A DNA stretch of 64,000 nucleotides, taken from positions 1 through 64,000 of the forward strand of contig NZ_JAGGQL010000009.1 in the NCBI RefSeq assembly GCF_018613315.1, given 5' to 3'. Source of the DNA: Bacillus sp. ISL-37. GTDB taxonomy: Bacteria > Bacillota > Bacilli > Bacillales > Cytobacillaceae. Every line of letters starts with the position of its first letter. The stretch's first letter is position 1. The notes beneath the pieces are model-generated. The model ran no database searches, was not told where the DNA came from, and worked only from the letters and a program-made list of their open reading frames with translations. Shown one piece after another: positions 13,739-53,530 of the stretch. Position numbers and translations under genes: made by a program.

Positions 13739-13757
13739 AAGAGTAATTCTATATAAC

Positions 13758-14012
13758 CAAAGTGTTGAAGAGGAAAAGTAGAAGAATGACGCTTATTAGA
13801 GAGAACCATCACCGGCTGAAAGTGGTTCAGGCCTCTCATTTTTCGAAATGCGCCTCGGAGTCCCTTTGCGAAAAGGCAATCAGTGCCTGAGTAGTATCGG
13901 GCGGGTCCTCCCGTTAACAGGTGAAAGTTGAGGCTATTGCTTAAGGTAGCCTAAACAGAGTGGAACCGCGCATATCAAGCGTCTCTGTCGTATACGACAG
14001 GGGCGCTTTTTT
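13758..14012 (+). ncRNA. T-box riboswitch, cysteine type (cysE-cysS leader)
   Basis: This is a T-box leader: a stem I region, the 14-base T-box AGAGTGGAACCGCG (13957-13970) that pairs with the uncharged tRNA acceptor end, and a terminator. The terminator is AGCGTCTCTGTCG/CGACAGGGGCGCT (13978-14006) with a T-run to 14012. A TGC (Cys) triplet at 13849-13851 in the distal 3' side of stem I is the likely specifier. Uncharged tRNA-Cys would stabilise the antiterminator and allow cysE-cysS transcription, as in B. subtilis. The specifier assignment is by eye. Confidence 0.93.
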
Positions 14013-14070: not shown

Positions 14071-14345
14071 TCCAGCTCCAGCGCCTAGCCCCTCGAGTCG
14101 CTTGTCTAGTGTCGCCTCCTAGAAACTCCGAAACTTCAACTCCGCCGGCAGGGTCGGAGTCTCCAGTTTCTGCGTTTCTGGACAGTCGGCTATACTTTCC
14201 GATTTCGGTCCGCCCATTGAAGTCAAAGAACGACTTCATTGGGCGGCCCTCCGAGGCACAGGACGTGCTAGACCCGCCAGCCACACGATGTGGCGTTTTA
14301 GGCGGGCAGCGCTTGTCGGGGCTGAACGAGGCGCTTGCGCTTTTT
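14071..14345. repeat. Long palindromic dispersed repeat, copy A
   Basis: This repeat begins CCAGCTCCAGCGCCTAGCC and ends CTTGTCGGGGCTGAACGAGG then CGCTTGCGCTTTTT. A second copy is at 19365-19659. Its ends are partly complementary (AGCGCCT/AGGCGCT). It contains a 15-bp arm CCGCCCATTGAAGTC paired with GACTTCATTGGGCGG (14210-14246, one mismatch), an ACTCCG/CGGAGT arm, and an extra nested hairpin near 14270-14308 absent from copy B. Open frames on both strands here are by-products. It lies between the T-box terminator and cysE, lengthening that leader. Confidence 0.9.
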
Positions 14346-22421: not shown

Positions 22422-22439
22422 TCTTCTTGTTGTGAAAAA

Positions 22440-22564
22440 AAAATAACATTTGTACCGCAGACAGCAGGGGCTTATAGCTTAATAACCTGCCGAGGTCATA
22501 CGATAGAGCAACACTTTTACTATTGTATACTTCCTCCGTGTCTGTCCAGATGCGGAGGTTTTTA
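22440..22564 (+). ncRNA. Ribosomal L10 leader (rplJL autoregulation)
   Basis: The leader between the consensus promoter and rplJ has the layout of the Bacillus L10 leader: a structured binding region and then a terminator-like hairpin. That hairpin is CCTCCG (22533-22538) paired with CGGAGG (22553-22558) and a T-run to 22563. In B. subtilis the L10(L12)4 complex binds this leader to reduce rplJL expression. The assignment rests on position and the terminator; I did not fold the binding region in full. Confidence 0.8.
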
Positions 22565-22605
22565 TTTGATCGGTATAAATGCAACAATCTACAGGAGGTG
22601 TAAGG

Positions 22606-28210: not shown

Positions 28211-31200
28211 TTGCTAGATGTTAATAATTTTGAGTACATGAAAATTGGCCTCGCTTCACCAGACAAGATCCGTTCATGGTCTTTCGGTGAGGTTAAAAAG
28301 CCGGAAACAATCAACTATCGTACTTTAAAACCAGAAAAAGACGGCTTATTCTGTGAACGTATCTTCGGACCGACGAAGGACTGGGAATGTCACTGTGGGA
28401 AGTACAAAAGAGTTCGCTACAAAGGCGTAGTCTGTGACCGATGCGGTGTTGAAGTAACACGCGCAAAAGTCCGTCGTGAAAGAATGGGACACATCGAGCT
28501 TGCAGCTCCTGTTTCTCACATCTGGTACTTCAAAGGTATTCCTAGCCGTATGGGACTTATCCTTGATATGTCTCCGCGCGCACTTGAAGAGGTTATTTAC
28601 TTTGCTTCTTACGTCGTTACGGAAACTGGCGACACTGCCCTTGAGAAGAAGCAGTTGTTGTCAGAAAAAGAATACCGCGCTTATCGTGAAAAATACGGTA
28701 ATAAATTCCAGGCGGCAATGGGAGCAGAAGCAATCAAAAAGCTGCTTTCAGATATCGACCTTGATAAAGAAGCCGACATGCTTAAGGAAGAATTAAGAAC
28801 AGCACAAGGCCAGCGTCGTACTCGTGCGATCAAGCGTCTTGAAGTAGTTGAAGCGTTCCGTGGTTCAGGCAATGAGCCATCTTGGATGATCCTTGATGTC
28901 CTCCCTGTCATCCCGCCGGAACTTCGCCCGATGGTACAACTTGATGGAGGTCGATTCGCAACTTCCGACCTGAACGATTTATACCGCCGAGTAATCAACC
29001 GTAACAACCGCCTTAAACGTCTTCTTGACCTTGGTGCTCCTAGCATCATCGTTCAGAACGAAAAGCGTATGCTTCAGGAAGCTGTTGACGCGTTGATCGA
29101 TAATGGCCGCCGCGGCCGTCCGGTAACAGGACCAGGTAACCGTCCGTTGAAGTCCCTGTCTCATATGCTTAAGGGTAAGCAAGGTCGTTTCCGTCAAAAC
29201 CTTCTTGGTAAGCGTGTTGACTACTCTGGACGTTCTGTTATCGTCGTAGGTCCTAACCTGCAAATGTACCAGTGCGGTCTGCCTAAAGAAATGGCACTTG
29301 AGCTGTTCAAGCCATTCGTAATGAAAGAATTAGTGCAAAAAGGTTTAGCGCACAACATTAAGTCTGCTAAACGTAAAATTGAGCGCGTTAGCCCTGAGGT
29401 TTGGGATGTTCTAGAAGATGTAATCAGAGAACACCCAGTATTGCTTAACCGTGCCCCAACACTTCACAGACTTGGAATCCAGGCGTTCGAGCCAACGTTA
29501 GTAGAAGGACGCGCAATCCGTCTTCACCCGCTCGTATGTACAGCTTATAACGCTGACTTCGACGGTGACCAGATGGCAGTTCACGTGCCACTTTCTGCTG
29601 AAGCACAGGCAGAAGCACGTCTATTGATGCTTGCTGCTCAGAACATCCTGAACCCTAAGGATGGAAAGCCGGTTGTTACTCCTTCACAGGATATGGTTTT
29701 AGGTAACTATTACCTGACTCTGGAAAGAGAAGATGCTGTCGGTGAAGGCATGGTCTTTAAAGATGCGAATGAAGCATTGATCGCATACCAGAATGGCTAT
29801 GTACATCTTCATACTCGTATTGCTGTTGCCGCATCATCACTTGGCAACCAGACATTCAATGAAGAGCAAAATGGCCAGCTCTTGATCACGACAGTTGGAA
29901 AGCTGATTTTCAATGAAATCCTTCCAGCGTCATTCCCTTACATCAATGAGCCTTCCAAGCAAAATCTTGAGGAGAAAACTCCAGAGAAGTATTTTGTGGA
30001 AAAAGGCGCAGATGTGAAGGAAGTCATCAAGTCTATGCCATTGGTGGATCCGTTCAAGAAGAAAATTCTTGGAAACATCATTGCTGAAGTGTTCAAGAAG
30101 TTCAAAATCACTGAAACATCAAAAATGCTTGACCGTATGAAGGGTCTTGGCTTCACATACTCGACTAAAGCGGGTATTACGGTTGGTGTGGCTGATATCG
30201 TGGTTCTTAAAGAGAAGCAGGAAATCATTTCAGAAGCACAAACAAAGGTAGATAATGTTCTTAAGCAGTTCAGACGCGGTTTGATTACCGAGGATGAGCG
30301 TTATGATCGCGTAATTTCTATCTGGAGCCAGGCGAAGGATAATATCCAGGCTAAGCTGATGAAATCACTAGATAATTCAAATCCTATCTTCATGATGAGT
30401 GACTCCGGTGCCCGTGGTAACGCGTCCAACTTCACACAGCTTGCTGGTATGCGTGGTCTGATGGCCAACCCGGCTGGACGAATCATCGAGTTGCCGATCA
30501 AGTCAAGTTTCCGTGAAGGTCTGACAGTATTGGAGTACTTCATCTCCACTCACGGTGCTCGTAAAGGTCTTGCCGATACAGCACTTAAGACTGCTGACTC
30601 AGGTTACCTGACTCGCCGTCTCGTAGACGTAGCACAGGATGTTATCGTTCGCGAAGACGATTGCGGTACAGACAGAGGTTTATTTATCAAATCACTTAAA
30701 GATGGTACTGAAGTAATCGAACCTCTAGATGAGCGTTTAATTGGCCGTTATGCACGAAAGGCAATCAAGCATCCTGAAACAAAGGCTGTGATTGTACCTG
30801 AAAACGGATTGATTACAGAAGACTTGACTGTTGAAATAGTAGAAGCAGGTATCGAAGAAGTATGGATCCGCTCTGCATTCACATGTAATACACGCCATGG
30901 CGTATGTAAGAAGTGTTACGGACGCAACCTTGCGACCGGCCAGGAAGTCGAAGTTGGCGAAGCAGTCGGTATCATTGCTGCCCAGTCAATCGGTGAGCCA
31001 GGTACTCAGCTTACAATGCGTACATTCCATACGGGCGGTGTTGCAGGAGACGATATCACACAAGGTCTTCCGCGTATCCAGGAATTGTTCGAAGCACGTA
31101 ATCCTAAAGGGCAAGCTGTCATCTCTGAATTGGAAGGTGTCGTAGTCGGCATCAACGAAGGAAAAGATCGTCAGCAGGAAATCGTCATTCAGGGTGAAAT

Positions 31201-37295: not shown

Positions 37296-37729
<434 letters not shown>

Positions 37730-51891: not shown

Positions 51892-52278
<387 letters not shown>

Positions 52279-52353: not shown

Positions 52354-52621
52354 GAGGCCAAAAGCCTCTGTCGAAAACTGAAAAAAGCAGCACAAGCCAA
52401 AACGAGCGTTATGATGAGCAGGCCACTTGGAAAGAAGAGTTCACTGGCCCCATCGGCCGGTTACTTCAGGACTCTCCTGAATCGTTTAGCGATAGATGCC
52501 TCATCTATTTATAACCGGAGCTGTTCTGCCTGTCTCGTCTAGCTCATGTACCTCTCCCCAGTCCTAATAGGACCTGCAGTTGCGGATCGCTTCCGCCCGG
52601 GGAGAGGTGCAGGCTTTTTTT
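52354..52621 (+). ncRNA. Candidate structured leader RNA (riboswitch-like) of ecfA1-ecfA2-ecfT
   Basis: A chain of perfect helices can be read. GAGGC/GCCTC spans 52354-52368, and GGCCA (52421-52425) pairs with TGGCC (52445-52449). A three-way junction is closed by CCGGTTA (52457-52463) and TAACCGG (52512-52518), enclosing TTCAGG/CCTGAA (52465-52481) and ATAGATG/CATCTAT (52492-52508). TGTACCTCTCCCC (52547-52559) then pairs with GGGGAGAGGTGCA (52599-52611), enclosing GTCC/GGAC and GCGGA/TCCGC. CCTGCA (52573-52578) can instead pair with TGCAGG (52608-52613), next to CTTTTTTT. Competing helices before a T-run suggest a transcriptional switch. It does not match a T-box or the riboswitch consensuses I know. 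Ligand and function are unknown. Confidence 0.65.
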
Positions 52622-52690: not shown

Positions 52691-53530
52691 ATGAGCAAAC
52701 CCTTAGTTAGAATAGAAAATGTATCTTTCAGTTATGAAGGGCAGCATACTCCCGCGTTAAAAAATATCAATTTTGATATTTTTGAAGGAGAGTGGCTGGC
52801 GATTGTCGGGCATAACGGTTCTGGCAAATCTACTCTTGCAAAGCTTTTGAACGGCCTGCAATTTCCGCAGCAAGGTTCGATTGAGGTTTGTGGAGTCACT
52901 TTGTCAGAGGATACTGTATGGGATGTAAGAGGAAATGTAGGAATGGTTTTTCAAAATCCTGATAACCAATTCGTTGGAACAACGGTTCGGGATGATGTGG
53001 CTTTTGGTCTGGAAAATCACGGCATACCTAGAGAAACAATGGTAGAGCGCGTGCAGACTTCACTTGATAAAGTCAATATGGGAACCTTTCTAAATCAAGA
53101 GCCGCACCATCTGTCTGGCGGCCAAAAACAGCGTGTTGCCATTGCTGGTGTCCTGGCACTGCAGCCGTCGATCATTATTTTGGATGAAGCAACATCCATG
53201 CTCGATCCAAGAGGCCGTGCAGAGGTAATCAAAACGGTTCGTGAGTTGAAGGATCGCGAGAACATAACGGTCATTTCGATAACCCATGATCTTGAAGAAG
53301 CTGCGAAAGCGGACAGGATCATCGTCATGAACAAAGGCGAGCTATACCGTGAAGGAACTCCCGAGGAAATTTTTGAAATGGATGAAGAGCTGGTTAAGCT
53401 GGGTCTGGATATTCCCTTCCCAGTAAAAATGAGCAAAATCATGCGAGAAAAAGGAATTGCACTTACAAAATCTTATTTGACAGAAGAAGAGCTGGTGACG
53501 GAATTATGGACATCTCACTCAAAAATGTAG
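52691..53530 (+). CDS. ecfA1: ECF transporter ATPase EcfA1
   Basis: This 279-residue ABC ATPase is one of two that energise energy-coupling-factor vitamin and metal importers shared by many substrate-binding S components. It has Walker [11 protein letters not shown]-loop [10 protein letters not shown], signature LSGGQKQR, Walker [11 protein letters not shown] and H-loop ISITHD. ATG 52691 follows GAGGAGGGGCGG. It overlaps ecfA2 by 25 bases. The structured region at 52354-52621 lies directly upstream. Confidence 0.95.

Follow-up and report, generated by a model that had tools for sequence, protein, structure and literature searches.

An enlarged L17DE variant behind rplQ in Bacillus sp. ISL-37 resembles a branched intrinsic terminator of the alpha ribosomal operon

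Introduction

The L17 ribosomal protein downstream element (L17DE, Rfam RF01708) was published in 2010 by Weinberg et al. (PMC2864571), who proposed feedback by L17 from the 3′UTR. A later survey states that the encoded protein or another one from the upstream operon could bind L17DE (PMC7247131). In an Enterococcus study, the element is predicted in the ~180-nt 3′UTR of rplQ (PMC7724050). No mechanism for L17DE was found in the relevant sections of a 2024 review (PMC10931766), and no tested function is given in the literature that we found.

Here, we analysed a stretch of 64,000 nucleotides from Bacillus sp. ISL-37 (the window), in which an earlier note had proposed an undescribed, riboswitch-like leader RNA of an ECF transporter operon in the segment between rplQ and ecfA1. 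Genomes, loci and families of the comparison are referred to by our handles (G, L and f numbers) where they need to be told apart.

Results

The spacer between rplQ and ecfA1 consists of a terminator hairpin, T1, followed by a densely folded segment (Table 1). The predicted fold of this segment has an energy of -114 kcal/mol, compared with -78.3 +/- 4.8 in 200 shuffles (z -7.4), so its structure is beyond chance. The earlier note had described it as densely folded, and both this description and all the helices that it named were borne out by sequence and folding. They include the helix closing a three-way junction (CCGGTTA at 52457-52463 with TAACCGG at 52512-52518) and the arms of this junction (TTCAGG/CCTGAA within 52465-52481 and ATAGATG/CATCTAT at 52492-52508). 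The 13-bp stem, which we call P4, is conserved as a stem preceding the U-run. The three-way junction is a variable insert: its length differs among genomes of the same genus, five of which (L009-L013) are devoid of the third arm. Neither P4 nor T1 was listed by a simple terminator scan, which allowed loops of 3-8 only.

Table 1. Positions of genes and RNA features around the rplQ-ecfA1 spacer of the window
Feature	Position	Strand	Basis
rplQ (ribosomal protein L17; gene preceding the element)	51916..52278	+	ORF list; L17 protein query
T1, rplQ terminator hairpin and U-run; conserved motif GGRCAG...CUG with asymmetric internal loop	52300..52345	+	
P0 5′ strand AAGCC, partner GGCUU 52612-52616	52394..52398	+	register uncertain: longer folds pair upstream A-run with U-run
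P1 5′ strand GAGC of L17DE core	52404..52407	+	Rfam and core alignments, exact pattern
Core internal loop, 5′ side GUUAU, facing UA	52408..52412	+	alignments of core-bearing loci
P2 5′ strand GAUGAG	52413..52418	+	covariation
Enlarged apex of core arm, with the three-way junction of the earlier note (52457-52518)	52419..52533	+	folding; length variable within genus
P2 3′ strand CUCGUC, loop UA, P1 3′ strand GCUC	52534..52545	+	alignments, exact pattern
P4 5′ strand (terminator stem) TGTACCTCTCCCC	52547..52559	+	folding, P4 search across elements
P4 3′ strand (terminator stem) GGGGAGAGGTGCA	52599..52611	+	folding, P4 search across elements
P0 3′ strand GGCUU merging into seven-U tail	52612..52621	+	sequence, individual folds
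C plus T7 run	52614-52621	+	
ecfA1, next gene downstream, ATG at 52691	52691..53530	+	ORF list, ecfA1 protein query

Querying the segment against Rfam at the gathering threshold returned no family, riboswitch and T-box families included, in agreement with the statement of the earlier note that it lacks the T-box sequence and the TPP, FMN, cobalamin, lysine and SAM consensuses. Six weak matches appeared at E-values up to 10; five were judged to be chance, and L17DE alone made positional sense. This match scored 13.8 bits (E 9.1), compared with a gathering cut-off of 37 bits, and aligned both conserved blocks. While the score by itself is no proof of identity, the core pattern does more: the L17DE core GAGCGUUAUGAUGA...UCGUCUAGCUC is found at 52404-52545, and the pattern GAGCGTTAYGATG-N100-130-GTCTAGCTC occurs in the window only there and in none of 100 shuffles. 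The second core block GTCTAGCTC is present in the window solely at 52537-52545. Where the L17DE model has 18 nt, the window copy has 116 nt, including the three-way junction. We are nearly certain that the segment is L17DE, and since its score is under the Rfam cut-off we class it as an enlarged variant rather than a plain member. The RNA is therefore not undescribed, as it has the core and the position of L17DE (RF01708, PMC2864571), in enlarged form.

An extra exact copy of the first core block, GAGCGTTATGAT, lies at 30296-30307 (+) without GTCTAGCTC and scores 9.5 bits with the core model R1 introduced below. Elsewhere in the window, Rfam matches above threshold were a T-box leader (13756-13989, +), an L10 leader (22437-22573, +), an S10-Clostridia leader (37306-37408, +) and a Bacillaceae-1 RNA (14255-14317, -).

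The Rfam model was also run against other genomes. Among 45 genomes, 18 matched at E-values up to 10, several of these by chance, and only G026 (37.4 bits) and G032 (37.0 bits), both from the window's family, passed the L17DE cut-off, at the same place behind rplQ. When 16 core-bearing or kindred loci were scored against this cut-off, four passed: loci of f53 (76.9 bits), f59 (56.1) and f32 (54.1), and that of G026. The 12 loci below it include core-bearing ones of f27, f28, f30, f37 and f38.

We next determined how widespread the element is. The segment was matched in 19 of 20 genomes of the same genus, the exception (G009) being a 66%-complete draft. We then read the rplQ spacers of 144 genomes, comprising relatives and part of a class-wide draw, from 44 families. 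The core was found in 66 spacers, the T1 motif in its strict pattern in 62 and both in 30, of which 29 are from the window's family. By the patterns used, 12 families have the core, 15 have T1 and 19 have neither; part of the core's constancy derives from the search patterns used in collecting. A core model, R1, was built from 27 segments. In 151 genomes it produced 42 matches, of which we used the 37 strong single matches at >=39 bits and dropped five at 19-20 bits as chance (G048 twice, G080, the second of G120, and G124). All 37 follow rplQ on its own strand, at distances of 18-152 nt. In 398 genomes, R1 had one strong match each in 119. As R1 misses members with long inserts, including that of the window's own genome, 37/151 and 119/398 are lower bounds. 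Its best match in the window (52406-52490, 12.7 bits) has the wrong 3′ partner, and the window copy was located by the exact pattern. Finally, a pattern for the window's family matched 101 stretches in named records, 80 of which are listed by name. The locus includes rplQ in 87 cases, and the full core is present in 85 of these; the remaining 14 stretches are chance matches or lie on truncated contigs.

The element accompanies rplQ. Adding 50 further loci, all 50 with the element behind rplQ, to the 37 R1 matches resulted in 77 distinct genomes, drawn from the 119 with a strong R1 match; in 77/77 of them the element is directly behind rplQ, at 18-173 nt. In the window, the core starts 125 nt past the rplQ stop codon. 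No ecfA1 was found within about 1.4 kb of the element in five lineages: 21 genomes of f53, one of which is cut 233 nt after the element, and one genome each of f72, f74, f59/g177 and f37/g161, where other genes follow or there is no ORF of 80 codons. Conversely, ecfA1 is behind rplQ without the core in all genomes read of f26 (4/4), f35 (4/4) and f44 (5/5). Because the element is kept without ecfA1 nearby and ecfA1 is often behind rplQ without the element, the element tracks rplQ, not ecfA1. We thus found no preferential association with the ecf operon, and the reading as a leader of the ECF module is not supported. The ecf operon is described as an ancestral neighbour of the rplQ cluster (PMC8046335).

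The earlier note had further proposed a switch, in which CCTGCA (52573-52578) pairs with TGCAGG (52608-52613) in competition with P4. CCTGCA is retained in 15 of 20 genomes of the same genus, the window's own included. Shuffled loops, in turn, gave an equal partner in 20/40 cases for the window and in 54% over 135 distinct loops, and the longest rival helix averaged 5.6 observed versus 5.0 shuffled. In the window, the energies are -19.2 kcal/mol for the rival pairing and -38.1 for the main stem, a difference of ~19 kcal/mol in favour of the latter. We therefore rejected this hairpin: in the window's lineage, two mutually exclusive pairings occur at chance level.

A different, local hairpin was found at the place of the rival pairing, in the apical loop of P4, in two other families (AAAGCGC or AGAGCGC/GCGCUUU in f30; AAAGCGUG/CGCGCUUU in f37). 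No more than 8 of 40 shuffles equal it in 7/11 f30 loci and in 4/4 distinct f37 loci; in the four remaining f30 loci, 16-36 of 40 do. Some switching at this hairpin in f30 and f37 is possible. Competition of the local hairpin with P4 for the strand before the U-run was seen in L059, L093 and L261 (f30 or like) and in L125, L154 and L304 (f37 or like). The loop test, named-record loci included, did not find an antiterminator conserved across families. A candidate antiterminator between GAUGAG and the P4 5′ strand was discarded, as by eye it fits some short members only.

These results bear on the view of the earlier note that the segment is a metabolite-responsive attenuator of the ECF operon. 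That the element lies directly before ecfA1 and has a terminator-like end, that ecfA1 comes next in 82 of the 85 named-record loci that have both rplQ and core (in the remaining three, the sequence stops no more than about 500 nt from either of them), and that the local hairpin beats most shuffles in the f30 and f37 loci counted above would all be consistent with it. Considering that the element persists behind rplQ in the five lineages without ecfA1, that f26, f35 and f44 have ecfA1 without the core, and that the switch in the window is at chance level, we find such an attenuator very unlikely. Of the proposed leader, a conserved structured RNA with a terminator-like end that precedes ecfA1 is supported; its novelty, its assignment to the ECF operon and its switch are not.

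Attenuation by a leader peptide was also considered, in which translation of a 42-residue peptide (AUGAGC...UAG) sets the fold. This frame is open in the window, where it begins at the core's second AUG and reaches the UAG within GUCUAG. It is not kept in relatives: the frame ends at this UAG in 7/33 sequences, the UAG is out of frame in 22 and three more are without the start pattern, and by eye no Shine-Dalgarno sequence precedes it. We rejected this explanation, which is hardly tenable.

To describe the architecture, we compared the elements helix by helix. For P2, 16 cells changed on both sides, compared with 4.2 in shuffles, and none of 500 shuffles reached 16; on 67 skeletons there were 33 such changes versus 6.6 in shuffles, where the largest value was 14. 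The number of pairs in the P2 test with any both-side change was three, which is not above shuffles (221/500). Covariation thus supports P2 in terms of cells and score, though not in the count of pairs. P1 hardly varies and is uninformative, and we excluded the P4 pairing counts on skeletons from the covariation evidence, as they arise by selection and mix registers. Of the 67 distinct skeletons, 58 have GUUAY/UA as the core loop and seven others GCAAY/UA; this constancy is in part imposed by the pattern used for collection. In 55 of 66 elements, a search that required a U-run and left out the named-record loci found a P4-like stem close ahead of it; the cases of L110 and L119 appear spurious. 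Three or four bases separate P4 from the U-run in most of these 55 elements.

The 5′ end of the element can pair with this spacer and with the first Us. The resulting helix, which we call P0, has at least five pairs in 24 of the 27 distinct cases. Only two of these comparisons are telling, since the 5′ strand of most elements fits almost any 3′ end: the deviants L138 and L032 pair solely with their own partner (AAACG/CGUUU; AAAUC with GG plus the U-run). Folding from P0 to the U-run resulted in the same junction of P0, arm and P4 in 9/10 sequences, the exception being L032; in L093 the junction formed with P1 in another register. As a control, we shuffled the 5′ segment in 52 elements, leaving out the named-record loci. 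The natural value was matched in 147/624 trials overall, in 0-3 of 12 trials for f30 and f37 and in 2-7 of 12 for the window's genus, where the control is weak because A-rich shuffles also pair with the U-run. L138 fails this control outright and loses P0 once 20 upstream bases are included, and in longer folds of the window an upstream A-run pairs with the U-run in place of P0. P0 is thus supported as a type of helix and less firmly in its exact register in the window.

Taken together, the core (P1, the GUUAY/UA loop and P2) is directly followed by P4 and the U-run, and core-bearing elements are bound to rplQ. In these folding models, the RNA appears to be a branched intrinsic terminator: a three-way junction that carries the core on one arm and is closed at its base by pairing of the 5′ end with the nucleotides ahead of the U-run.

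Other structures were noted around the element. A second terminator-like hairpin (CUCGCC...GGCGAG or similar, with a U-run) lies between the element and ecfA1 in L028, L031, L032 and L037, and f53 has a further terminator-like hairpin beyond the element. A GAUUUAUACGACA stretch is found ahead of the core in the f30 loci L059, L060, L062, L063, L078, L093 and L106, and AUACGACA in L072 of f28.

We next turned to T1, whose motif AAGGGYGRGGRCAG...CUGRUUC...CCCUU is kept in 15 of the 44 Bacilli families read, by a pattern written after the sequences were seen. For two base pairs above CAG/CUG, which itself hardly varies, we counted 19 and 12 both-side changes, in an alignment where the outer stem is misaligned. 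A T1 model matched 47/151 genomes, in 46 of them at 12-73 nt behind rplQ (the exception is G050), and 22 of its matches are from genomes outside the model set, mostly of the same families. Scanning Rfam at the gathering threshold yielded nothing for T1 in the window, nor any match across 12 rplQ loci, of which almost all carry T1, and we found no description of T1 in the open-access literature on L17DE and rplQ-ecfA regions. By sequence comparison, T1 is a second conserved motif linked to rplQ and occurs almost only there. In the window it lies between rplQ and the element, so an rplQ mRNA must read through T1 to contain the element.

This separation might suggest that the element is a stable small RNA in its own right, transcribed and released to act elsewhere. 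Two further observations fit this explanation. In Staphylococcus aureus, Sau-30 and sRNA347 are reported at 348 and 380 nt upstream of ecfA (PMC6102330), and the Rfam family sau-30 (RF02388) overlaps the 3′ part of the element and beyond at L125:154-212, at 27.5 bits and below its threshold of 70. The window segment has no match to this Staphylococcus sRNA. A promoter of the element's own was rejected, as there is no excess over shuffles either ahead of it (6/53 segments vs 4.6) or behind it (13/53 vs 10.5), and a promoter scan found none on the + strand around the window copy. In f53, moreover, the core starts 16 nt past the rplQ stop codon with no intervening terminator. An independent small RNA is therefore an unlikely explanation.

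Discussion

We propose that the element is a protein-sensing terminator of the alpha operon with the core loop as receptor, and give this reading about even odds (a probability of roughly 0.5). The conserved core loop would bind a ligand, for which the most likely candidate is a ribosomal protein encoded in the alpha operon upstream. Such a protein is favoured over a vitamin because the link to rplQ is fixed and independent of the next gene. Folding of the core would then set how well P0 closes, and with it how much transcription ends at the element. In the window's lineage, this may determine the read-through from the ribosomal operon, already thinned by T1, into ecfA1-ecfA2-ecfT-truA and rplM behind. 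The interposed T1, the weak P0 control in the window's genus, the lack of a cross-family antiterminator, the additional hairpin past the element in f53 and the fact that only four of 16 core loci reach the L17DE cut-off count against this explanation.

Some of the same observations would suit a plain terminator or 3′-end protector: a fold that stops the rplQ transcript and guards its 3′ end without any ligand or switching. The P4-like stem before the (required) U-run in 55/66 elements, the lack of a cross-family antiterminator and the constant company of rplQ are in line with this. Still, terminators rarely keep a loop sequence across families, yet GUUAY/UA and GCAAY/UA together recur in the skeletons as counted above. 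We consider a plain terminator the less probable explanation, although it is the likeliest of those set beside a protein-sensing terminator.

The comparison suggests that L17DE is a branched terminator fixed to rplQ and that it is present in Bacillaceae too. This makes the question concrete: which molecule, if any, decides termination? It also removes the ECF riboswitch as a false lead and brings a second conserved rplQ hairpin, T1, to attention. More speculatively, the alpha ribosomal operon of many Bacilli might close with either of two conserved RNAs that act as sensor and terminator at once, to which a protein of the operon would bind and so set read-through into the following genes. Under this doubtful generalisation, T1 would serve in some 15 of 44 families and the branched L17DE terminator in 12, with both in tandem in the window's family, and the feedback site would lie after the coding genes, not before them. 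That 19 of the 44 families have neither motif by the patterns used counts against it.

The closest described system is L17DE itself. The likeness consists of the position behind rplQ on the same strand, the core GAGYGUUAYGAU...GUCUAGCUC, the helices P1 and P2, and an extra hairpin after P1. The window copy differs from the Rfam model in its arm of 116 nt instead of 18, its score under the cut-off and the separate rplQ terminator that precedes it; P0 and the U-run are outside the Rfam model. While the published range of L17DE is Lactobacillales and Listeria, the element was here also found in named Mesobacillus, Neobacillus, Cytobacillus and Niallia records. By analogy, the element also resembles ribosomal-protein leaders, which are proposed to sense proteins. 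Such leaders, for instance the L10 leader (RF00557) that is also in the window, are likewise structured RNAs in ribosomal operons. They sit before their gene, whereas the present element sits behind its gene.
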